From a virus: a stretch of DNA of 22,513 bases. Of this stretch, positions 9,887 to 21,585 are shown in pieces. Below the pieces are notes generated by a model. The model saw only the letters and a program-made list of their open reading frames with translations. It was not told the DNA's origin and ran no database searches. How positions within the stretch are numbered: position 1 is the stretch's first letter; each line of letters starts with the position of its first letter. The stretch lies in IMG/VR virus record IMGVR_UViG_3300023198_001213, positions 1 to 22,513 of that record; one strand, written 5' to 3'. The translations under genes were made by a program, and so were the position numbers.

Positions 9887-10237
9887 ATGTCGAACAAGTT
9901 GGACGTCATCGCAAAACTGGTCGACCCGAACAAGATGCGTGCGGTCGAGGCGGCGGTCACCCGCATCATTGCGGCCAGCTTTCACGAGGACGCGCGCAAG
10001 GCCGCTGGTCTGCAGGGGCGCATCACTGGAGAGCTGAAAGCGACCGAACGCGAGGTGCGGCGTCGGGCCGAGCTGTGCTGGGACTGGTTCATTGCCATGC
10101 GCGCTGAGTGTGGGTTCTCGTCGTACCACGCGATTGACCTTTTGCCGGCTGCGCTACGCTCGGAGCTGGACGGGACACCGTGGATACCACCGCCGCCGGA
10201 GCGTAGCTGGAGCCCGCAGACTGGAGTGAAGCCATGA
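9887..10237 (+). CDS. small helical protein in the head cluster (116 aa)
   Basis: ATG at 9887 follows the MuF stop by eight bases (TAGGTG upstream); its stop TGA overlaps the ATG of the next gene. The product starts MSNKLDVIAKLVDPNKMRAV. Three or four helices follow, one rich in charged residues (RITGELKATEREVRRRAELC), then a WDWF aromatic patch and a Pro-rich tail (WIPPPPERSWSPQTG). There is no signal peptide or catalytic motif. Tight coupling to MuF and protease suggests a head assembly role, which is inference. Confidence 0.7.
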   Translation: MSNKLDVIAKLVDPNKMRAVEAAVTRIIAASFHEDARKAAGLQGRITGELKATEREVRRRAELCWDWFIAMRAECGFSSYHAIDLLPAALRSELDGTPWIPPPPERSWSPQTGVKP

Positions 10238-12300
10238 CCGACATCGAAGCCAGGCTAGCGAAGGCACTGGATGGCGCAGCCGCGGCGCTGGGCCAGTCGC
10301 AGGACACAGAGGATGGCGTGTGTCTAGGGAAAGAGGCGCTTGCTCAGGGCAAATTGCAGACGCTCAAGGTGCCCGACCCCGAGTTCGTGGTGAAGCGCCT
10401 GACAGCAGGGCAGTCTGCCGGGCTGCTGGCGCGCCGGAGCCGCGTCGCACGGCTGGGGGATGCGCAGGCCCTCGTCTCCGGTCGCGGCGCAGCAGCGCGC
10501 GTCTGGGGCGTGGTTAGCCAGGGCGGCCCGGTGCCTGCTGCCTCGTTGGCTGCCCTGGATGGCGGGCTGCGCAGCGGGGTCGACAAGGCTACTCGGGCCG
10601 ACTACGCCGAGCAGGACCGGGAGCTGTTCTACATCCCGCTGCGCCTGCTGGCCCAGTTCGACCCACCGCTGAAGCTGCGACGTGCGCCACTGGGCAAGCG
10701 CTTCGGCAGCACCATCGACTTCGCCACCGACATCGAGTTGGACGCGCCGCCGGCTGCCTGGTTCGCGGAGAACCCGAGCGCCGAGCGGTTGCGCGGGCTG
10801 TCCGACGAGTCGTTGGCCACGCTGCGCGGAGAGCTGTGCGACTTGCACGACAGCGACACCGTTGCGGTGGAGAAGGCTGACATTGTGAACGCTCACGCCT
10901 TCGTGCTGGCCGAGGCGAACCATCGCACGCTCGACCTGGACATGAACGTGGAGGAGCCGTTCCTGCTGGAGACTTTGGCGACGCTCTCCGTGGCGGCGCA
11001 AGGCGGCAACCTGGACGCGTTCGAGGTGGTCAAGCGGTTCGCCACCGTGCACCCGAGTGGCAAGGCGGCGCACGCCGACGACCCAGTGTTGCTGGATGAG
11101 GTGCTGAGCGCGCTGGACAAGTCGATGGCGTTGCGGACGCCGGCGGTGTTCCTCGTGGGCGGGGTGGCGCAGCACGGGATGTCGCCCAACGACGTCGACC
11201 TGCTGGTGCGCGGCCCGTTTGACGAGGCCACCGAGCACGTCATCAAGGTGCGCCTCGGCCGCGCGCTGCCACCGCGGCTGTCGCAGCGGGTGCAGTTCGT
11301 GAAGGACGACATGGGCGGCCCCATCAGCACTCACGTTCCGCTGTTCGACTTGGTCCTGGTGCCACACTCGGCGCGAGAGCTGGTGCAGATGCGCACCTCT
11401 GACGGGTTCGAGTACTCGGGTGCGGGCGGCTGCGACGTTTGCGGCCACGGTACGGTGGCGGATGCGGACACGTTCGACCCCGAGGCACCGTGCCCCGAGT
11501 GCGGCGTGACGATGCAGGTGTCGAAGCAGGCACCGCGCGAGGGCATGTCCGGCGAGCAGCTTGACGCAGCGCGCAAGGCACGCAGCCGGCAGTTCGGTAT
11601 CGAGGTGCTCGACGCGGGTAGCGCGCTGTCGTTCCCCGCCGGGTTCCCGACTGACCTGCGTCAGTATGGCGACCCGGTGAACCTGAAGTATCCGGTGGAC
11701 ACGGTGGAGCGTGCTCGCAATGCGCGCACCCGCTTCAAGCAGAACGCGGACGCGTACCAGGAGGCGCGCAGCCGAGCGCGAGTGCACGAGCGCATCGTGC
11801 GTGCCGAGCTGCGGTTTGGCGTGGTGCCGTCGTTCGACTCGGACGACCCGCTGGACAAGCTGCTCCCGGCGGGCCTGCGCGACCAGCTCAGCAAGAGCGT
11901 CGAGAAGAATGTGCGCCTGCTGAAGCAGGACAGCACCGCCGACACTGGCGGCGCCAAGGAGGAGCGCTTCGTGTTCGGCGTCGTGCTGGTGCCGGACGAG
12001 GTGGACGCGCAGGGCGAGGTCTACTCGGCCGACGAAGTGCGGAAGGCGGCGCACTCGTTTATGGAGTTGTTCGGTGGGCAGTTCAAGGTCATGCACAAAG
12101 GACGTCCTGTGGATGGCGTCCAGGTGCTCGAAACCTACGTGACCAAGGCAAAAGAGGCGCACGGAGGTGAGACATTCCCGATGGGCACCTGGCTCATGGG
12201 AGTGCGCGTGCAGGACGACGAACTGTGGGCCGACGTGCAAGCTGGAGAGTTCACCGGCTTCTCCATCGGCGGGACCGCCTTGCGCGAGAGGTTGACATAG
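10234..12300 (+). CDS. fusion: nucleotidyltransferase-like domain, zinc ribbon and XkdF-type capsid maturation protease
   Basis: This 688-residue protein looks multi-functional. Residues ~130-270 are helical (LSDESLATLRGEL, then DIVNAHAFVLAEANHR). Residues ~285-375 carry the Pol beta-type nucleotidyltransferase signature: LVGG (307-310), PNDVDLL (318-324; Asp320, Asp322) and FDLVLVP (371-377; Asp372). A CxxC pair at 400-403 and another at 420-423 form a zinc ribbon. A helical linker (YPVDTVERARNARTRFKQ, 486-503) leads to the XkdF serine-protease-like domain (575-688) with FVFGVVLVPDEVDAQGEV, MHKG (His621), MGTWLMGVRV, and GEFTGFSIGG (Ser677). The protease would process the scaffold during capsid maturation; the transferase role is unknown. 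ATG at 10234 overlaps the upstream stop (ATGA). A single in-frame TAG ends it 27 bases before the next gene. Confidence 0.8.
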   Translation: MTDIEARLAKALDGAAAALGQSQDTEDGVCLGKEALAQGKLQTLKVPDPEFVVKRLTAGQSAGLLARRSRVARLGDAQALVSGRGAAARVWGVVSQGGPVPAASLAALDGGLRSGVDKATRADYAEQDRELFYIPLRLLAQFDPPLKLRRAPLGKRFGSTIDFATDIELDAPPAAWFAENPSAERLRGLSDESLATLRGELCDLHDSDTVAVEKADIVNAHAFVLAEANHRTLDLDMNVEEPFLLETLATLSVAAQGGNLDAFEVVKRFATVHPSGKAAHADDPVLLDEVLSALDKSMALRTPAVFLVGGVAQHGMSPNDVDLLVRGPFDEATEHVIKVRLGRALPPRLSQRVQFVKDDMGGPISTHVPLFDLVLVPHSARELVQMRTSDGFEYSGAGGCDVCGHGTVADADTFDPEAPCPECGVTMQVSKQAPREGMSGEQLDAARKARSRQFGIEVLDAGSALSFPAGFPTDLRQYGDPVNLKYPVDTVERARNARTRFKQNADAYQEARSRARVHERIVRAELRFGVVPSFDSDDPLDKLLPAGLRDQLSKSVEKNVRLLKQDSTADTGGAKEERFVFGVVLVPDEVDAQGEVYSADEVRKAAHSFMELFGGQFKVMHKGRPVDGVQVLETYVTKAKEAHGGETFPMGTWLMGVRVQDDELWADVQAGEFTGFSIGGTALRERLT

Positions 12301-12327
12301 AGGTACAGTTCGCAACAGAGGCGATGG

Positions 12328-13986
12328 ATGCAGCTCTCCAAGGCAGACGCAGCTATCGAGGCTGCGCTCGGCGCGCTGAAGGTCAGTGGTGCTCGCTTTC
12401 GTCTGCGCGATATCTTGGTGGAGGAAGTTTCGCTGGTAGACCGCGCCGCGAACAAGCGGCGGTTTCTCGTTGTGAAGCAGCAGGGTGACAACATGGGCAA
12501 TCCAGACAGCGCTGTGCAGAAGCTCGAACTCTCCAAAACGACCAAGGCAGCTCTGCTGCTGACGCTGACCAACGCGCTGGAGCGTTTCGTGCCAGTGGTC
12601 CACGCGGTCAAGGGTGCGGATGAGTTGGAAGCCGATGGCGCTGGGCTGCCCGCAGACCTGGCTGCAGCGCTCGCCGGTGTCGGCGCCATGCTGTCCGGTG
12701 TGCTGGACGACCACGCCGTGTCGGTGTCCAAGCAGATGCACGTTCACAGTCTGCCGGGTGGCGAGATGACTGGCGAAGCCGGCGAGGGCCCGCACATGCA
12801 CAGTCTGCCGGACGGCGGTGAGACTGGTAGCGCTTCCGGCGAGGGGCACACGCACAGTCTCCCTGATGGTGGTGAGACTGGGCCTGAGCAGTACGTCGAA
12901 GGCGAGGAGATGGAAGAAGAGGAGATGGCGGCCAAGTCGTTGGCCAAGTTCATCTCGAAGGTGCTGGGGGACGAGGCGCCCGAGGCGCTGTCCGCCGAGA
13001 AGCTCAGCGGACTGGGCAGCGAGTTTGCCGACAAGATGGGCGTGCTCGCGCGCGTCATCGCACTCATTGCCGACGTTGGTTCGCCCGACGAGCTGGCTGA
13101 CATGGGCAACCGCATGCTCGGTGTCGGCAAGGCGCTGAAGCGCGACGGCACCGCATCGCAGGTGCTCGATGTGGTGGCAGATGTGGCCAGCGCTACGTCT
13201 GCCGAGGCGGCGGACGGCGAGGAGCTGACTGCCGAGACCGTGGTGAAGATCAGGCAGCTCGCAGCCACGCTGAACGAGCTGGTCGAGAAGTACCCGAGCC
13301 CGGTTGCGGGCGAAGCCAAGGGAGACGGCGACATGACCGCGAAGGCCGACGACACCAGCAAGAACGACACCCCGCCCGAGGGCAGCGCCAAGGACCAGAG
13401 CAAGGACGCGGCCGGTGCGGCGCCTGGCGAGGGCAACCTGGACAACGCGGACAAGGACGCGGCCGACGCGGCTGCTGCCAAGAACGTGGATGCCGATGCT
13501 GACACCGAGCCCGGTGCTTCGGCTGATGACATCGAGGCAGACGAGAGCGTCGTGAAGATGGCCGAGGCCATTGCGACCGGCGTCGTGGTGCTCTCCAAGG
13601 CCGGCCGCAAGATGAGCCGGGTGCGGCTGCGCCGCATGCGCAACGCGGTCAACACTCTGGGTGAGTTGCTGGGCGAGTTGGACGACGAAGCCAGCGCCGG
13701 CGACGGCACGGAGAAGCGCGTGGCCGAGACCACGCCCCAGCCGCCCGACAAGGAGCCGGGCGACACCAGCGTCGGGCACGCCGGCCCGCCCGACAAGCGC
13801 AACGACAAGGCCGAGAACCTGCCGGCAGTGGAAGACGTGCTGAAGCGCGTGGACGAGCTGCAGGCCGAGGTCAAGAAACTTGCCGACACGCCGGAACCTC
13901 CGGCGAGCCGTGCAGATGAGAACGCTGGTTCACCAGGCGTCCCGCCGAACGGCGGGAAGAGTGCTGGCGGGCCGTGGGTCTGGTGA
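12328..13986 (+). CDS. probable capsid scaffold, linked to the protease
   Basis: This likely guides capsid assembly and is then degraded. Residues 28-50 carry the conserved segment DILVEEVSLVDRAANKRRF and VVK, which in XkdF-type proteins I know belongs to the same polypeptide as the protease. After that come a three-copy His-rich repeat (137-185), an acidic patch (VEGEEMEEEEM, 190-200), a helical region, a long Asp/Ala/Lys-rich low-complexity stretch (~330-410) and a C-terminal coiled coil (VEDVLKRVDELQAEVKKLAD), as expected of a scaffold just before the major capsid gene. ATG at 12328 has GAGG six bases upstream. It is in the same frame as the protease gene, separated only by one TAG. An internal ATG at 12493 could give a shorter scaffold. 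No membrane span. Confidence 0.75.
   Translation: MQLSKADAAIEAALGALKVSGARFRLRDILVEEVSLVDRAANKRRFLVVKQQGDNMGNPDSAVQKLELSKTTKAALLLTLTNALERFVPVVHAVKGADELEADGAGLPADLAAALAGVGAMLSGVLDDHAVSVSKQMHVHSLPGGEMTGEAGEGPHMHSLPDGGETGSASGEGHTHSLPDGGETGPEQYVEGEEMEEEEMAAKSLAKFISKVLGDEAPEALSAEKLSGLGSEFADKMGVLARVIALIADVGSPDELADMGNRMLGVGKALKRDGTASQVLDVVADVASATSAEAADGEELTAETVVKIRQLAATLNELVEKYPSPVAGEAKGDGDMTAKADDTSKNDTPPEGSAKDQSKDAAGAAPGEGNLDNADKDAADAAAAKNVDADADTEPGASADDIEADESVVKMAEAIATGVVVLSKAGRKMSRVRLRRMRNAVNTLGELLGELDDEASAGDGTEKRVAETTPQPPDKEPGDTSVGHAGPPDKRNDKAENLPAVEDVLKRVDELQAEVKKLADTPEPPASRADENAGSPGVPPNGGKSAGGPWVW
12736..12885 (+). repeat. three-copy His-rich repeat inside the scaffold gene
   Basis: The unit HxHSLPxGGExTG occurs three times with about 18-20 residue spacing: MHVHSLPGGEMTG, HMHSLPDGGETG and HTHSLPDGGETG. 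The DNA copies are similar but not identical (cacagtctgccggacgg versus cacagtctccctgatgg). The HxH pairs could bind metal. Similar GHTH-type repeats occur in various phage structural proteins. Confidence 0.85.
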
Positions 13987-14031: not shown

Positions 14032-14964
14032 ATGGAAGACAATCGAAGCATCGTCCAGAAGGCGGACTTCCTGGTCGCGCAGTTGGCGCCGGGTGGGCTG
14101 CTCGAACCAGCGCAAGCGGATCGGTTCATCCGATTGGCCATCGACGCCAGCGTGCTCATGCAGAAGATGACGCGCGTTGACATGCGTGCGCCGAAGGAGT
14201 TGCGCGAGAAGATTCGCTACGGGTCGCGCGCTCTCCGCAAGGGCACCGAGGCCACCGCGCTGAGTGAGGCGCAGCGGAGCCGTCCCGACACCTCCAAGGT
14301 GGAGCTGGATGCCCAGCTCGTGAAGGCCGAGACGCGCATCTCGTTCGAGGCCATGGAGGACAGCATCGAGCGCGGTAACTTCGAGAACACCGTGCGCGAC
14401 ACCCTGGCCGAGCGCATCGCGCTGGACCTGGAAGACCTGGCCGTCAACGGCGACCTCACCTCGGCAGACAGCCTGATGAGCGTGCTCGACGGCTTCCTGG
14501 TGCAGACCACCTCCAACACCGTGCTCGGCGGCGGCGCGACGCTGTCTCGTCCGGTGCTGAAGGATACGCTGAAGGCCATGCCTTCGGAGTTCCGCCGTGA
14601 CAAGCGCTCGATGGCGTACATCACGGCCGACGAGGCGGTGATCGACTATCACGAGAGCTTGGGTGACCGGGCGACCGTGCTGGGCGATGAGCACGTCGTG
14701 CAGCCCGAGAACCGCGGCTTCGGTGGCAGTCCCGTCATGGGCGTCCCCGTCTTCCCGGTCAACCTCGGCGGTGCGACCAACGAGACCGAGCTGCTCTTTG
14801 CCGACCCCAGCAACATGCTCTTCGGAGTGTGGCGCAACATCCGCGTCGACACGGACAAGGACGTGTCGGCTGGCGTGTACGTCATCGTCGTGACTGCGCG
14901 GGTGGACTTCAAGTGGGCCGAAGAGACGGCGGCCGTCAAGACCACGGGGATCGTCGCGGTCTGA
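14032..14964 (+). CDS. major capsid protein, HK97-like fold
   Basis: This protein should form the icosahedral shell. It is 310 residues long and starts MEDNRSIVQKADFLVAQLAP. The HK97-type pattern is visible: an N-terminal helical arm, an E-loop region with strands (KVELDAQLVKAETRISFEAM), a spine helix (NTVRDTLAERIALDLEDLAV), the typical NGDLTSADSLMSVLDGFL segment (about 138-157), and A-domain strands with GGSPVMGVPVFPVNL and AGVYVIVVTARVDFKW. ATG at 14032 follows GGAG and AGGAAG. It lies after the protease and scaffold, the expected order. I see no obvious processing site in its short N-terminus. A GC-rich stem-loop follows the gene. Confidence 0.93.
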   Translation: MEDNRSIVQKADFLVAQLAPGGLLEPAQADRFIRLAIDASVLMQKMTRVDMRAPKELREKIRYGSRALRKGTEATALSEAQRSRPDTSKVELDAQLVKAETRISFEAMEDSIERGNFENTVRDTLAERIALDLEDLAVNGDLTSADSLMSVLDGFLVQTTSNTVLGGGATLSRPVLKDTLKAMPSEFRRDKRSMAYITADEAVIDYHESLGDRATVLGDEHVVQPENRGFGGSPVMGVPVFPVNLGGATNETELLFADPSNMLFGVWRNIRVDTDKDVSAGVYVIVVTARVDFKWAEETAAVKTTGIVAV

Positions 14965-15862: not shown

Positions 15863-16393
15863 ATGCAATTCGTACGAGTCACACCTTACGACAAGAGGCA
15901 GAAGGCACTGGCACGACGCGTCGTAGTCGGTGGCAAGCTGTTCATCGCTGGCAAGTGGTACAAGATGCCCGAAGCCAGTGCCGCGCAGCTCACACCGCTG
16001 AAGCAGTCGAGCGGGGCACCCTACTTCGACGTCGTTTCCGAGGAGCGGTTTCGCGAGGTGTCGCGGCGGGAGTTGGCTGCTGCCATGACCGCCGCAGGAC
16101 TCTCGGGGCTGGCGATGCAAGGCGTGGAGCCTGCACCGGTGGCGCCGGAGCCGAAGGTGGCTGCTCGCAAGAGCGCCTTCGACGGCATGGAGAAGGCCAC
16201 GACTGAGGTCGATCTGACCAAGCCCGTTCCCCCAGCCGACGACGCGCCCAGCGTTGAGGCTACTTCCGACCAACCGGACATCGACAAGATGACCAAGGCG
16301 GAAATGAAGGAACTGGCCGAGCAGCTCGACGTGGCTCTGCCCTCTGGGGCCAGTGCTGCGCGCATCCGCGCCCTCCTTCGCGACTACGTCTGA
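15863..16393 (+). CDS. hypothetical structural-region protein with C-terminal SAP/HeH-like helices (176 aa)
   Basis: ATG at 15863 (AAAGG just upstream) starts MQFVRVTPYDKRQKALARRV. The N-terminal ~70 residues are a small mixed domain (VVVGGKLFIAGKWYKMPEAS). A flexible Pro/Ala/Glu linker follows (PAPVAPEPKVAARK, then KPVPPADDAPSVEATSDQP). The last ~35 residues (MTKAEMKELAEQLDVALP, then ARIRALLRDYV) fit the helix-extension-helix or SAP-like module often found at the end of small phage proteins in this genome position. Such modules bind DNA in some proteins; here it is a suggestion only. It could be a head-completion protein. Confidence 0.65.
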   Translation: MQFVRVTPYDKRQKALARRVVVGGKLFIAGKWYKMPEASAAQLTPLKQSSGAPYFDVVSEERFREVSRRELAAAMTAAGLSGLAMQGVEPAPVAPEPKVAARKSAFDGMEKATTEVDLTKPVPPADDAPSVEATSDQPDIDKMTKAEMKELAEQLDVALPSGASAARIRALLRDYV

Positions 16394-16447: not shown

Positions 16448-16975
16448 ATGCGTCTCATCAACGCCGCAACCGTCCCCCGGGCCGAGAAGCTACTTCGGCG
16501 GGCCCAGTGCGCGCCGAGCTTGGCGGTGGGTGATTGCGTCAAGGTCAGCGGTGCGAAGGTCGGGGTGTACCTCCAGGTCGCGTTGGCCGACCCGTTGGCT
16601 GCGCCGTTCCGGCCGGCGGTGGGCATCGTCACGCGGAAGTACACCAGCACGCTCTGCCTCGTGCAGTCCGCTGGTCCCATGGCGGGTGTCGTGTCGGGCC
16701 TGGTGCCTGGCGCTGCGTACTACCTCGGCGCGAGCGGTCAGCTTGTCAGCAGCCCACCGGCTTCGCCGGCGCGGGTGCAACAGATGGGCGTCGCCTGGGA
16801 TGCCGACGAGTTCCTGGTGCACTGGTACGATGAAGGGGGCGCTGCTGCCGTGGCCGACTTTGACGTGGACCGGATGCTGGTGCTTCGGTGGAACCCGCAC
16901 GACCCGCCGGTTCACGAGGAGCCTAGCATCGCAATCCAGCGCAGCACTGGGAACGCGATGGTGTTGAGGCCATGA
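16448..16975 (+). CDS. beta-rich structural protein, probable adsorption-complex component (175 aa)
   Basis: ATG at 16448 starts MRLINAATVPRAEKLLRRAQ. The body is a beta-rich module: AVGDCVKVSG, PAVGIVTRKYTSTLCLVQSA, GVVSGLVPGAAYYLGASGQL, then QQMGVAWDADEFLVHW. The same pattern (value entering at 'G..VY', 'A.GI', then 'LYVS...G.LT...P' and an 'iG.al' strand) occurs twice in the large fibre protein at 18895-21585, so this is a shared virion module. The C-terminus has FDVDRMLVLRWNPHDPPVHE. The stop overlaps the next ATG (ATGA), so the two proteins are probably made together. Exact role unknown. Confidence 0.65.
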   Translation: MRLINAATVPRAEKLLRRAQCAPSLAVGDCVKVSGAKVGVYLQVALADPLAAPFRPAVGIVTRKYTSTLCLVQSAGPMAGVVSGLVPGAAYYLGASGQLVSSPPASPARVQQMGVAWDADEFLVHWYDEGGAAAVADFDVDRMLVLRWNPHDPPVHEEPSIAIQRSTGNAMVLRP

Positions 16976-17514
16976 CGTACCACGACGCAGCACGGCCCCG
17001 TGACATCCACGTCATCCACCAGTACGAGTTCACCAACGAGGCGAACCGGTTGGCAGGCATCGACCTGAACCTGGGGTCGCTCACCCTGGTAGCCAACGAC
17101 ATCGGCAAGGTGGGCCGGCAATTGGACACGGGCGAGTTCTATCTGCTGGTCGATGTGGCGCCCATCACCTGGCAGGAGTGGGGCGTTGCCGACGCACTGC
17201 ACACGGTGAAGGACAAGAACCTCGTCGCGAACAACACCGTGAGTGACGGGGCGCTGGCCACCGCTAGCGCCATCACAACGAAGCCCGCGAACGCTGGCTA
17301 TGTGCAGGTCTTTGTGAACGGGAACAAAGTGGAGCTAGCTGATGGCGGTGTGACCCCGGGCTCGTGCTACTTCTCCAACGACGGCGGCGCGACGCGTCGC
17401 CTGATAGCCAACATCGAGAACGGCGACACGCTGCACTGGGTCGGCTCGTTCGCGAGCTACCAGCTAGAGACGTCTGACAGGATTGATTTCGACTACGAAG
17501 AACAGGAGCCGTGA
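16972..17514 (+). CDS. adsorption/fibre-associated protein sharing its C-terminal domain with the next gene (180 aa)
   Basis: ATG at 16972 overlaps the previous stop. Residues 1-80 start MTYHDAARPRDIHVIHQYEF and include SLTLVANDIGKVGRQLDTGE and FYLLVDVAPITWQEWG, a segment typical of phage structural proteins. Residues 81-180 align without gaps to the last 98 residues of the next gene, with about half the positions identical by eye (for example SCYFSNDGGAT, DTLHWVGSF, SDRIDFDY). The gene therefore looks like a short partner of the fibre, perhaps a connector or a second receptor-binding tip. It lies four bases before the next gene's ATG. Confidence 0.7.
   Translation: MTYHDAARPRDIHVIHQYEFTNEANRLAGIDLNLGSLTLVANDIGKVGRQLDTGEFYLLVDVAPITWQEWGVADALHTVKDKNLVANNTVSDGALATASAITTKPANAGYVQVFVNGNKVELADGGVTPGSCYFSNDGGATRRLIANIENGDTLHWVGSFASYQLETSDRIDFDYEEQEP
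17212..17511 (+). repeat. copy 1 of a duplicated fibre C-terminal domain
   Basis: This codes for residues 81-180 of the 180-residue protein, homologous to 18583-18876. Shared motifs are VNG, DG, CYFS, GAT, DTLHW and DRID. The copies are about half identical at the protein level and therefore an old duplication rather than a recent one. Confidence 0.8.
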
Positions 17515-17517
17515 GCC

Positions 17518-18879
17518 ATGGCACTCATCAAGGGCAAGCAGATCGCAACGGGTGCCGATGGTATCGACACCGCTAACCTAGTTGATGACGCGGTCACCAA
17601 CGCGAAGATCGGTCCCAGTGCGGTCGACTCTACCGAGATCGCAGCGGGTGCCATCGACACGGCGCACATCGGCAACAACCAAGTCACCGCCGCGAAGGTG
17701 GGCAGCGACGTGGTGGTCACGGCCGGCACGAACGCCTTCACCGCCGACCAGGACATGGGGAACAACAAGCTCACCGGCTTGGCGACCCCTACGCTGGACG
17801 ATGACGCCGCGACGAAGGCGTACGTGGACGCCGCTGCGCAGGGACTCGACATTAAGGAGTCGGTCCGGGTGCGCGCGAACGGCAACATCAACCTCGCCGC
17901 ACCTGGCGCGACTGTGGACAGCGTGGCGATGGTGCTCGACCAGCGCTTCCTGGCCGACGAGCAGAGCACTGGTACGCAGGACGGCATCTATCTGTGGAAG
18001 GGTGCGGCGGTCCCGGCGGTGCGCACGGACGACGCACAGGTGGGCGATACCTTCGCCGGCGCGTTCCTGTTTGTGGAAGAGGGCACGGACGCCGACACGG
18101 GTTGGGTGTGCACCAATGACCAGGGCTCCGACGTCATTGGCACCGACGCGCTGACGTTCACGCAGTTCAGCGGCGCTGGCGCGATCATCGCCGGCACCGG
18201 CATGACCAAGAGCGGTAACACGCTCAACGTCATTGGCGGCACCGGCATCACCGCCAACGCGGACGACATCGAGGTCGACTATGAAGCAACCCCCGGCAAC
18301 CTCGGCGTGGTCGACGCGGGTTCCACCGCCGCTGTCGGTTCGCTCAACACAGCTGCTCGCGGCGACCACGAGCACGCGGTGTCGACGGGTGCGCCTACCG
18401 CGAACGCACAGGTGGCGGACACGAACGCGGAGGGCAGCAGTGCCAACCTCGCGCGCGCCGACCACACGCACGGCATCCCGGTCGGGTCACCGTCCAGCGT
18501 AGGCACGTCCAACGCGAACGGCTCGTCTGGCAACTTCAACCACAGCGACCACGTTCACGCGGCGCCGCACCAGACCACGTCGAACAAGGACATGGCAGCC
18601 AGTCTCACCGCGTCGGACAACGACCCGGCCACGGCGACTGCGATTGCCAGCACACCGGCGCTGGACGGCATGGTCAGCGTCCACGTCAACGGCGTGCAGT
18701 ACAAAGTCGGGGACGGGGTGAAGACCGGCTGCGCCTGCTACTTCAGCGGCGACGCTGGTGCAACCGCACGGGCCATCGCCGCCATCGTGGCGACCGACAC
18801 GCTGCACTGGAACGGGTCCATCGTGGGCTTCGAGTTGGCTACGACTGACCGTATCGACCTGGACTACCTGGCCTTCTAA
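17518..18879 (+). CDS. tail fibre-like protein with DHxH motifs (453 aa)
   Basis: This probably forms a trimeric fibre that binds the host. Residues ~12-65 are short imperfect repeats (IDTANLVDDAVTNAKIG, AVDSTEIAAGAIDTAHIG, NNQVTAAKVG). Then comes the phage-fibre motif MGNNKLTGLATPTLDDDAAT and KAYVDAAAQGLDIKESVR. A knob-like segment includes GWVCTND and VIGTDALTFTQFSGAG. Three DHxH motifs (DHEH 283, DHTH 315, DHVH 344) follow, each preceded by a Gly/Ser/Ala-rich repeat; HxH sites bind iron along the T4 gp37 fibre. Residues 356-453 are the domain shared with the upstream gene. ATG at 17518 is in GAGCCATGG, with AGGAG upstream. Confidence 0.85.
   Translation: MALIKGKQIATGADGIDTANLVDDAVTNAKIGPSAVDSTEIAAGAIDTAHIGNNQVTAAKVGSDVVVTAGTNAFTADQDMGNNKLTGLATPTLDDDAATKAYVDAAAQGLDIKESVRVRANGNINLAAPGATVDSVAMVLDQRFLADEQSTGTQDGIYLWKGAAVPAVRTDDAQVGDTFAGAFLFVEEGTDADTGWVCTNDQGSDVIGTDALTFTQFSGAGAIIAGTGMTKSGNTLNVIGGTGITANADDIEVDYEATPGNLGVVDAGSTAAVGSLNTAARGDHEHAVSTGAPTANAQVADTNAEGSSANLARADHTHGIPVGSPSSVGTSNANGSSGNFNHSDHVHAAPHQTTSNKDMAASLTASDNDPATATAIASTPALDGMVSVHVNGVQYKVGDGVKTGCACYFSGDAGATARAIAAIVATDTLHWNGSIVGFELATTDRIDLDYLAF
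18583..18876 (+). repeat. copy 2 of a duplicated fibre C-terminal domain
   Basis: This codes for residues 356-453 of the fibre protein and aligns gap-free with the end of the upstream gene (17212-17511). Conserved pieces include ACYFSGDAGAT, DTLHWNGS and TDRIDLDY. Confidence 0.8.
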
Positions 18880-18894
18880 GCACGACTGGTTCGC

Positions 18895-21585
18895 ATGCCG
18901 ACGCCCAGAGGTAAGCAAGTCGAGATCGAGCATACGCCCGTCAACTATGCGGCGGGCGGTGCGCAGCTGGAGCAGCACCTCTCCGGCATCGACACCGCAC
19001 TCGCTTCGGGTGGCAACCCCACACTGCTCGTGCTCACCGCTCGCAAGGGTACTGGTGGAACCATCGCTGTCGGTTCGCCAGTCTACGCCAGTGGGTGGAA
19101 CGGTGGGTTGAGCGTGGTGGAGGTGGAGCTGGCCGACGCAGACGCAGCGGCGCTGATGCCCGCGATTGGGTTGGCAGCTACCGCCCTCACGTCGGCGGCC
19201 GACGGTAGCGTCGTCACGAGCGGTGTGCTGTCCAACGTGGATACGTCGAGCTGGGCCGTGAGCGACTCGCTCTACGTGAGTACGACGGCAGGCACACTCA
19301 CCAATGTGAGGCCGGTTGGCGCGACCGCTGGCATCCAGCGGATAGGCGAGGTGCTGCGGTCGCACGCAACGCTCGGGCAGATTCTCGTGCAAGGCGCGGG
19401 ACGTACCAATGACGTCTCGAACATTGCGGATGGGCAGATTTGGGAGGGCGACGGGACAGGCGTTGCGGTCGAGGTGGAGCCGGACGGGCGGTACACCCCA
19501 GCAGCGCACGTCACCAGCCACCACTCGGGCGGCGGCGACCCGCTGGTGCACGACAGCATCGCGGGCAGTGGCAGCAACACTCACGCGCAGATTGACACGC
19601 ACCTCGGGAGCACCACTAACCCGCACGCTACCGACATCGAGAACCTTGGGTCGGGCACCCTGGCCGAGCTGAACTCGGCGGTGACGGATGCCACGCTGGA
19701 CGACAGCGGCGACAGTCGACCGCCCAACGGTGCGGCGAGCGGGGACTTGGGCGGGTCGTACCCGTCACCCACCGTGAACGACGGCGCGGACAGCACCGCC
19801 ATTCACGACAACGTGGCTGGCGAGATTGCGGCCATCGCGCTGAAGGCGTCCCCCGTTGGCGCGGACATGCTGGTGATTGAGGACAGCGCAGCAGCCAACG
19901 CCAAGAAGCGCGTCACCGTGGGCAGTCTCGCCGGCGGTGGCGACGTCACGGGGCCGGCTGGTGGAACCGTTGCGGGCAACGTCGCTCTGTATGACGACAC
20001 GACCGGCAAGGTCATCCGCAATAGCACCGTCAACATCGACGCCACGGACAACATCACTGGCGTCCGCACCATCGACCTGGACCTGCTGGGGACCCCGCCG
20101 TCGCACGGTGAGGGCCTGGTCTGGTACGACAGCGCAGCGCATGCGCTCGTTGCCTACAACGATATCTCAGCCACGACGCAGCAGCTCGGGCATGAGATGT
20201 ATCTGCGTGTCTACAACGACACGGGCGTGCTGATTCCAGACGGGAGCGCGGTCTACGTCAGTGGTGTGGACACTGGGCGCCCGACTGTCGCGCTAGCGCT
20301 GGCGAGTGCTTATGCAACGGCCTATGCCATCGGGCTCACGACTCACGACATCGGTATCGCGTCCGAGGGAATCGTCACCACGTTCGGTGGGGTGTCGGCG
20401 GATACCAGCGGATACTCGGCAGGGAATACGCTGTACGTCTCTCCGACAGTTGCCGGTGCGCTGACGACTACTGCTCCGGTTGACGGCAATATCCGGGTGG
20501 AAGTTGGCCGTGCGCTAGACTCGGCGGCTAGCGGGCGCATCGCCGTCGATGTCCACGGGCTCCCGCTCGACTCCGACAAGGGGCTGAACGTCCCGGGTGA
20601 CATCACCTGCAGTACTGACGGCAGTACGCAGAGCCCAGTAGCGCCGCGCATCATCGGCTTCACCGACCTGGGGCCAGGTGCGGAGGCCGGGCGATTCCAG
20701 TTTGGTGACGAAGCGAACGGGTTGCAGAATGGCTTCGACACCGTCACGCAGCTCTACAGTTACCACACGCTCCATCTTCTAGGTGACCGGCAGAGCGCAT
20801 CGGCACCGGCCTTCATCGCCGGTACGGCGGAAGACATCGCCGTCATAGTCGACAACATCACCGCCGGCGATATTGCTCTGGTTGTGCGCGCCGACCCGGC
20901 GCAGTCAGTCAGCCTGCAGGAGTGGCAGACGAGCGCAGGGACTCCGCTCGTTGCCGTCACCGAGACCGGCTCCATCGAGATGGGCGGCACGGCGACGGCC
21001 GGCGACCTCAACCTTCCCGACGAGGGGATGATTCGGTCGTATGGTGGGGCAGCACCGCGGGTCGTTGCGCGGGTGGAGGGTAGCGCGCTGTTCGTTGGTG
21101 AGAACGGTGCAGCCGCGGCTACCGGCGCGGTCGCAACGGTCGACATCGAAGCCACCACGAACGTCGACATCAGCCTGACCGGCTCCGACACCGTGGTCGC
21201 GTCGTTCCAGGCGACGCTGCTGGATTTTTTCACAGACATCGCCCACAACAACAACGACGCACTCGAACTCAAGACGGCGACGTTCAACGGTGTCATCACC
21301 AACGCCGCTATCACGGGCAACCCCTACGACATTGATTGGACGGACGGGCAGAAGCAGTCTGGCACCGTGACGGGCACGGCAACGGTCACGTTCACCGCGC
21401 CTGCCGGGCCGTGCAACCTGATGCTCTTGCTGACCAACGGGAGCGCGTTCACGGTGACCTGGCCCGCGACCGTTCAGTGGCCAGGTGGCTCTCCACCGTC
21501 CTTCACTGCGTCGGGCACTGACGTGGTCGCGTTCTTTTACGACGGGACGAACTACTGGGGCGTCGCGTCCCTCAACCTGAGCTAA
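18895..21585 (+). CDS. large multi-module tail fibre / adsorption protein (896 aa)
   Basis: ATG at 18895, 16 bases after the fibre stop, has no clear ribosome binding site. Residues 45-170 and about 440-553 are two copies of the beta module also seen in the gene at 16448 (SPVYASGWNGG and SDSLYVSTTAGTLTNVRPVG; SAVYVSGVDTG and GNTLYVSPTVAGALTTTAPV). Between them are a His-rich segment (HVTSHHSGGGDP, NTHAQIDTHLGSTTNPH), a GDLGGSYPSPTVN fibre motif and a GGDVTGPAGGTVAGN motif. Residues ~570-810 hold beta strands and GDLNLPDEGMIRS. The C-terminal knob (813-896: DIDWTDGQKQSGTVTG, FTVTWPATVQWPGG, VVAFFYDGTNYWGVAS) is a common phage fibre end domain. It probably acts at the host contact end or baseplate. 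Confidence 0.85.
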   Translation: MPTPRGKQVEIEHTPVNYAAGGAQLEQHLSGIDTALASGGNPTLLVLTARKGTGGTIAVGSPVYASGWNGGLSVVEVELADADAAALMPAIGLAATALTSAADGSVVTSGVLSNVDTSSWAVSDSLYVSTTAGTLTNVRPVGATAGIQRIGEVLRSHATLGQILVQGAGRTNDVSNIADGQIWEGDGTGVAVEVEPDGRYTPAAHVTSHHSGGGDPLVHDSIAGSGSNTHAQIDTHLGSTTNPHATDIENLGSGTLAELNSAVTDATLDDSGDSRPPNGAASGDLGGSYPSPTVNDGADSTAIHDNVAGEIAAIALKASPVGADMLVIEDSAAANAKKRVTVGSLAGGGDVTGPAGGTVAGNVALYDDTTGKVIRNSTVNIDATDNITGVRTIDLDLLGTPPSHGEGLVWYDSAAHALVAYNDISATTQQLGHEMYLRVYNDTGVLIPDGSAVYVSGVDTGRPTVALALASAYATAYAIGLTTHDIGIASEGIVTTFGGVSADTSGYSAGNTLYVSPTVAGALTTTAPVDGNIRVEVGRALDSAASGRIAVDVHGLPLDSDKGLNVPGDITCSTDGSTQSPVAPRIIGFTDLGPGAEAGRFQFGDEANGLQNGFDTVTQLYSYHTLHLLGDRQSASAPAFIAGTAEDIAVIVDNITAGDIALVVRADPAQSVSLQEWQTSAGTPLVAVTETGSIEMGGTATAGDLNLPDEGMIRSYGGAAPRVVARVEGSALFVGENGAAAATGAVATVDIEATTNVDISLTGSDTVVASFQATLLDFFTDIAHNNNDALELKTATFNGVITNAAITGNPYDIDWTDGQKQSGTVTGTATVTFTAPAGPCNLMLLLTNGSAFTVTWPATVQWPGGSPPSFTASGTDVVAFFYDGTNYWGVASLNLS

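Follow-up and report, generated by a model that had tools for sequence, protein, structure and literature searches.

Side-by-side short and long genes with a common C-terminal tip domain in uncultivated viruses: a putative paired fibre set

Two adjacent genes of an uncultivated bacterial virus, a short one (P0001) followed by a long one (P0002), encode proteins that end in related copies of one small domain. Genes bearing this tip domain also recur side by side elsewhere among uncultivated viruses, and this recurrence suggests that P0001 and P0002 work together. That they are coupled fibres forming a short/long set with homologous tips, and that the pair is the conserved unit, is a reading to which we give about an even chance. 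As far as sequence comparison goes, the new elements here are a tip domain, occurring in a long and a short form, that the libraries searched do not place, and the recurring adjacency of tip genes in uncultivated phages. No description of the domain or of the paired arrangement was found in the open-access literature, which is weak evidence of absence.

The gene pair and its common C-terminus

The window, i.e. the whole stretch of DNA analysed (an IMG/VR virus record of 22,513 bases with a G+C content of 66%), contains the following features.

10234-12300: phage protease domain gene (PF14550)
14032..14964, + strand: major capsid protein gene (phrog_1623, 4.8e-81; PF05065, 8.9e-12)
16972..17514, + strand: P0001, short upstream gene, 180 aa (translation)
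17200..17499, + strand: tip domain of P0001, long form, residues 77-176 (alignments)
17504..17508, + strand: AGGAG, Shine-Dalgarno-like (sequence)
17518..18879, + strand: P0002, long downstream gene, 453 aa, fibre-like virion protein (family matches, predicted model)
17659..18336, + strand: P0002 module, residues 48-273, phrog_2647-like ("head decoration"; E 1.5e-40), with similarity to further virion-protein families
18367..18558, + strand: HxH segment of P0002, residues 284-347, motifs at 284, 316 and 345, abutting the tip (sequence)
18571..18870, + strand: tip domain of P0002, long form, residues 352-451 (alignments, predicted model)
18895..21585, + strand: P0003, 896 aa, fibre-like, directly 3' of the pair and outside it (context)

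BLASTP aligned residues 77-175 of P0001 with residues 352-450 of P0002 at 49/99 identities without gaps (E 2e-21), and a local alignment of the whole proteins gave 49/98 identities and 0 gaps. The original prediction had claimed an ungapped alignment with about 48 of 98 identities; in its register (P0001 81-178 versus P0002 356-453, offset -2) the count is exactly 48/98. It had also proposed a comparison with shuffled sequences, in which the C-terminal 101 residues scored 227, far above 2000 shuffles with a mean of 27.4, an SD of 5.2 and a maximum of 60 (z 38). At the DNA level, identity over the 98 aligned codons is 57%, the longest identical run in register is 16 bases, and a repeat search of the window found no repeat linking both domain copies; therefore no recent DNA duplication is apparent, and a recent tandem origin is not supported. 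The similarity between the two domains is genuine and seems to be old.

The assignment of both genes to fibres in the original prediction is made at the level of annotation. It is backed for P0002, whose PHROG matches comprise head-decoration, virion-protein and tail-fibre families, but not for P0001, which matched none of the families of Pfam, PHROGs and NCBIfam and owes the label to the domain it has in common with P0002. Pairwise comparison of the N-terminal 80 residues of P0001 with 27 comparison genes gave no clear similarity; the scores of the best comparisons, with loci L084 and L036, were reached by 4/200 and 6/200 shuffles, respectively.

Only 3 bases separate the TGA of P0001 from the ATG of P0002, and the AGGAG sits 9 bases 5' of this ATG within the 3' end of P0001, so that translation of the two genes is probably coupled. 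Readthrough of the stop codon, which would fuse P0001 and P0002 (one TGA lies between them and the frame is common to both), was considered and set aside: one frame is shared by 8/16 pairs of long-form genes (counted by eye from the listed gaps), which is near the one in three expected by chance, and because of this share and the AGGAG ahead of P0002 an ordinary coupled start is preferred.

The protease domain gene and the major capsid protein gene make up the capsid module of the window, and the pair lies 2.0 kb downstream of the capsid gene. A minus-strand open frame at 10324-13779 (1,151 aa), which overlaps the genes at 10234-12300 and 12328-13986 in antisense, is most likely an artefact of the high G+C content. 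The 176-aa product of 15863-16393 has a C-terminal end that by eye resembles a small helical Rho-N/SAP-like motif. P0003 (18895-21585) contains an internal duplication (residues ~45-169 and ~435-555; z 15 versus 500 shuffles), and P0004 (16448-16975) is similar to the first P0003 copy (z 7.9), whereas its score of 52 with the second does not exceed the shuffle maximum of 58. By these alignments, P0003 and P0004 carry a second common domain within the same gene cluster.

Distribution, forms and history of the tip domain

With P0001 as query, 17 relatives were found among viral contigs; the alignment queries A2 and A3 returned 75 and 60 loci, many of them overlapping. After collapsing by shared sequence, 151 loci including the window yielded 73 groups, in which (one locus each) 42 had a single long-form copy, 28 had two, 2 had three and 1 had five, i.e. 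31/73 are multi-copy. This search for relatives with one or more copies had been suggested in the original prediction, and the whole records of the 72 relatives were consistent with it (30/72 multi-copy, leaving out one match of E 9.7e-4 with stops in G039). The domain ends at most 10 residues from the C-terminus in 98 of the 107 carrier ORFs and is internal or followed by further sequence in the remaining ones (e.g. L062, L076 and L037). L062:7163-12793 and L076:6479-11935 encode giant collagen-like phage proteins of 1,877 and 1,819 aa in which the internal domain follows very long G-X-Y stretches, with two copies in L062. L040:5642-10297, on a 192-kb contig and also present in L006 and L120, has two mirrored, divergently transcribed pairs with five domain copies, the shorter tip gene coming first in each pair.

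Pfam and NCBIfam scans of 26 or 106 members returned scattered weak matches, none common to more than 4/106, and any family of the PHROG scan was matched by at most 5/106, many of these rows including sequence ahead of the domain. On the strength of these scans, the tip domain has no convincing family in the three libraries. Profile searches of PDB sequences gave chance-level matches only. Of 50,697 phage records, four divergent long-form queries reached only three, identical for all four queries and each belonging to an uncultured phage (462-642 kb). One short-form query had no match in sequenced phages. In bacterial and archaeal genomes A2 produced 46 pattern matches and 0 relatives, a result of one short pattern that is no measure of prophage absence. 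Identities of the members to P0001 are mostly 30-45%, and the columns conserved at 90% or more in 106 rows include N116, G117, Y133, F134, G151, D152, L154 and W156.

A model for a short form of the domain, ~67 residues long, was seeded on three C-termini (L028, L058 and L029) chosen as upstream neighbours and then iterated. Among 9,977 six-frame ORFs it found 35 without the long form, seeds included; 26 of these are immediate neighbours of a long-form gene (13 on its upstream and 13 on its downstream side) and 9 are not adjacent to one. Alignment of both forms by hhalign gave a probability of 97.2% over 60 columns, a score reached by 0/60 column shuffles, and by eye the long form corresponds to the short form plus about 30 residues including a CYFSNDGG stretch. 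In L026 and L051, the closest relatives of the P0002 domain, it is the short form that terminates the gene in the position of P0001. A second short-form gene of L026 (L026:3451-3891, 147 aa) is located ~5 kb upstream of the short/long pair of this locus.

Adjacent long-form genes on the same strand form 16 pairs in 15/73 groups, window included, with the shorter gene upstream in 14/16. When both forms were counted (gaps of at most 250 bases, mechanical gene calls), 46 adjacent tip pairs were obtained in 45/73 groups, comprising 16 long-long, 16 long-short and 14 short-long pairs. This is 5.6 times the mean of 8.2 (maximum 18) from 1000 trials in which the tip genes were placed randomly among the called genes of each locus, although the count is conditional in that all groups were selected for holding the long form and three of the pairs are seeds. 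The upstream gene is the shorter one in 12/14 short-long pairs but only in 10/16 long-short pairs. The recurrence in excess of the random placement lends support to the original suggestion that P0001 may supply an alternative tip; the original interpretation is thus supported in part, its mixing with the long fibre and its dual host range being hypothetical. Since phages often have fibre genes next to each other and shuffle their tip domains widely, the adjacency may partly reflect fibre-gene clustering.

The history of the two copies was assessed with a tree of 109 non-redundant copies over 100 columns, in which many forks are unresolved and the bootstrap had not settled. It splits the window copies, grouping that of P0001 with L037 (98/80) and placing that of P0002 nearest to L026 and L051; L051 has one long-form copy, with which the P0002 copy shares 68% identity, as against about 49% with that of P0001. 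A sister relationship between the two window copies was not rejected in an AU test (p 0.39), and an origin in place in the lineage of the window is therefore possible. Of the tandem duplication proposed originally, a recent DNA copy finds no support and the tree separates the two window copies, while the AU test is compatible with an ancient duplication of the tip domain, which we regard as possible. Between L056 and L084 the first, second and third copies group with first, second and third, respectively, all starred; in L025, L049 and L069 the second copies fall into one starred clade and the first copies group with weaker support (89/72). This positional grouping across phages suggests that pairs are inherited as pairs. 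The two copies of L072 are sisters (100/97).

Predicted fold, shafts and comparison with spore fibres

In the structure predictions, all of monomers, P0001 (modelled with 106 aligned rows) consists of ~76 N-terminal residues of low confidence followed by the tip domain, with a mean pLDDT in blocks of ten of 46-68 for residues 1-70 and of 89-98 for residues 81-180. In the model of P0002 residues 351-453 reach 94-98 per block of ten, and a module around residues 111-200 has a pLDDT of at least 91. The tip domain is mostly beta and confidently predicted in these models, and its fold may be described as a sandwich. A Foldseek search of the PDB with both models returned 0 chains at E 1e-3 or better. 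The top VIA match of both was 9f4b_FA, a baseplate chain of Klebsiella phage KP1 (Z 5.9 and 6.0), followed by chains of the spore fibre F-ENA at ranks 2 and 3 for P0001 (Z 5.6 and 5.1) and at rank 2 for P0002 (5.4), and by a P74-26 neck chain (Z 5.1) and several phage tail proteins, all of which possibly represent background. In BFVD, searched with the P0001 model only, five matches at E 1e-3 or better were obtained, all from uncultured phages, four named "uncharacterized" and one "capsid decoration".

HxH motifs are reported to bind metal in trimeric phage fibres (PMC11705849). P0002 resembles such fibres of the T4 gp37 type, judged from sequence alone, by three HxH motifs before the tip, i.e. 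by repeated HxH in the distal shaft. A [DE]HxH motif precedes the domain in 10/107 domain ORFs, and at least two are present in 3/107 (window, L022 and L059) versus 5/2,031 other ORFs of at least 150 aa. Collagen-like G-X-Y runs precede the domain in 6/107 domain ORFs, including the short partner in L069, and five of the six end at most 18 residues from it; with 64/2,802 other ORFs of at least 120 aa containing such runs, the domain ORFs are not clearly enriched. Collagen shafts are trimeric, and the domain can therefore terminate a trimeric shaft. From the collagen-like shafts and the HxH motifs we infer that the tip-bearing fibres trimerise.

The domain DUF4183 (PF13799) is described as that of the F-ENA fibres of spores, which are end-to-end stacks of C3 trimers and in Bacillus are tethered by the collagen-like F-Anchor with its C-terminal DUF4183 domain; docking of F-ENA trimers on F-Anchor is proposed in the same source (PMC11952670). 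An N-terminal hook links the F-ENA trimers to one another. The tip domain is like DUF4183 in being a small beta domain with a [VI][FY][VI]NG hairpin that two different proteins carry, and some of its relatives have collagen-like shafts as F-Anchor does. It differs in being viral instead of sporal and in the outcome of the profile searches. At the curated cut-off of 25.1 bits PF13799 matched 0/50 records, the window being without a match; weak matches (E up to 1) occurred in 7/50 records, 5/7 of them inside a long-form copy (up to 14.2 bits) and one, the best at 17.2 bits, in the L026 short-form gene, while matches below the cut-off were also seen in 4/14 control genomes. Compared by hhalign with 38 DUF4183 sequences, the domain gave probabilities of 67% (A1, 25 columns) and 51% (109 copies, 21 columns) over a single hairpin, with 0/100 column shuffles reaching either score, and the short form gave 31%. 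Membership in DUF4183 is therefore not supported, and the link is suggestive only, an analogy with a possible distant relationship. In the order of Brevibacillus (L245-L283) at least two DUF4183 matches were found in 29/39 genomes and none in 10, and the matches are paired on one strand, by eye ~180-430 bases apart.

Arrangement and significance of the paired fibres

In the arrangement that we propose, P0001 and P0002 would be co-translated and would give a set of one short and one long fibre protein of the virion. Each would most likely be a homotrimer with the same small beta domain at its distal end. P0002 would be the long fibre, built from a virion-protein module, the HxH-bearing segment and the tip, and P0001 a short spike with little beyond the tip. 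Two unequal fibres would thus present related, diverged tips, probably to two surface ligands or to one ligand at two distances; exposure, adhesion and functional cooperation of the paired tips are presumed in this arrangement.

The position on the virion bears on the doubtful, though serious, possibility that both proteins are head-decoration or head fibres on the capsid surface, the domain contacting the environment or mucus and no specific receptor. The short distance from the capsid gene, the strong likeness of P0002 residues 48-273 to phrog_2647 "head decoration" proteins (e.g. of Cyanophage PSS2 and Phrappuccino) and the pair of L050, located between capsid and tail-tube genes with the portal further upstream, agree with it. 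However, the name of phrog_2647 rests on annotation, in annotated phages its relatives are found close to tape-measure or tail genes, and the match differs in lacking the shared C-terminal domain and in leaving P0001 unmatched. Furthermore, the pair comes after baseplate genes in L069 and after the tape measure in L049 (single loci read, as was L050), and the PF05065 capsid gene is downstream of the tip gene in G036/L051 and ~16 kb upstream in G034/L049; PF05065 matched 3/50 records, too few for a statement on head versus tail. The pair is thus head-proximal in two cases (window, L050) and belongs to the tail region in two others (L069, L049), which leaves a single role on one part of the virion unsupported.

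Other explanations concern the domain itself. It may be a C-terminal trimerisation or folding cap (foldon-like) of many fibres and no receptor binder, so that the pair merely shares a cap. This would fit a domain that terminates very different proteins and shafts and has a strongly conserved part of the core, unlike typical hypervariable receptor tips; we nevertheless hold it to be unlikely, as the low identities to P0001 leave room for a variable surface, relatives carry a shorter form at this position, and in some proteins the domain is internal or has further sequence behind it. Rather unlikely, too, is plain redundancy, in which a tip was duplicated or recombined into the neighbouring gene of a fibre cluster without functional pairing. 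Domain shuffling is described among phage proteins that meet the host (PMC10684548), P0003 and P0004 beside the pair share another domain, and the AU test keeps the window copies as possible sisters, but the excess of adjacent tip pairs over the permutation mean, the short-then-long order of the long-long pairs and the tendency of positional copies to group across phages (L056/L084; L025/L049/L069) speak against it. Axial stacking, with the P0001 trimer docking end-on on the C-terminal trimer of P0002 and thereby extending or capping the long fibre, we likewise think improbable. It would reproduce the layout of F-Anchor and F-ENA, in which one terminal domain is common to two distinct proteins (PMC11952670), and could draw on the weak PF13799 matches, the ranks of the F-ENA chains in the structure lists, hhalign scores above all column shuffles and the close DUF4183 pairs in the order of Brevibacillus. 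However, no member reaches the Pfam cut-off and control genomes match below it too, hhalign covers one hairpin with the short form lower still, and Z values of 5-6 are within the background stated by VIA. Very improbable is its extension to the entire tip superfamily as a two-component system, a phage counterpart of F-ENA/F-Anchor in which a short trimer sits end-on on the homologous tip of the long fibre; the scope of that reading would be uncultivated tailed phages, the system not being found in the cultured ones of the collection searched.

The proposed short/long set can also be compared with known multi-fibre systems. CBA120-type phages carry several tailspikes that have attachment domains in common but distinct receptor ends. 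The likeness lies in several fibres of unequal size per virion, here read from genes alone, and the difference in P0001 and P0002 sharing the C-terminal end. In the invertible fibre cassettes of Mu and P1, alternative genes are oppositely oriented between inverted repeats. Two related fibre C-termini in adjacent genes are reminiscent of these cassettes, but P0001 and P0002 have the same orientation (+), with 3 bases between them. The repeat search of the window showed no inverted-repeat switch around the two genes, both inverted pairs listed (39 nt at 74% and 16 nt at 81%) having both arms inside P0002, and a cassette of this type was rejected.

Receptor-binding fibres decide which bacteria a phage enters, and many tips of uncultivated phages are unclassified. 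The tip domain may help to locate tip genes in viral metagenomes. Its paired occurrence raises the question of whether a short and a long fibre whose tips are homologous act as one adhesion device.
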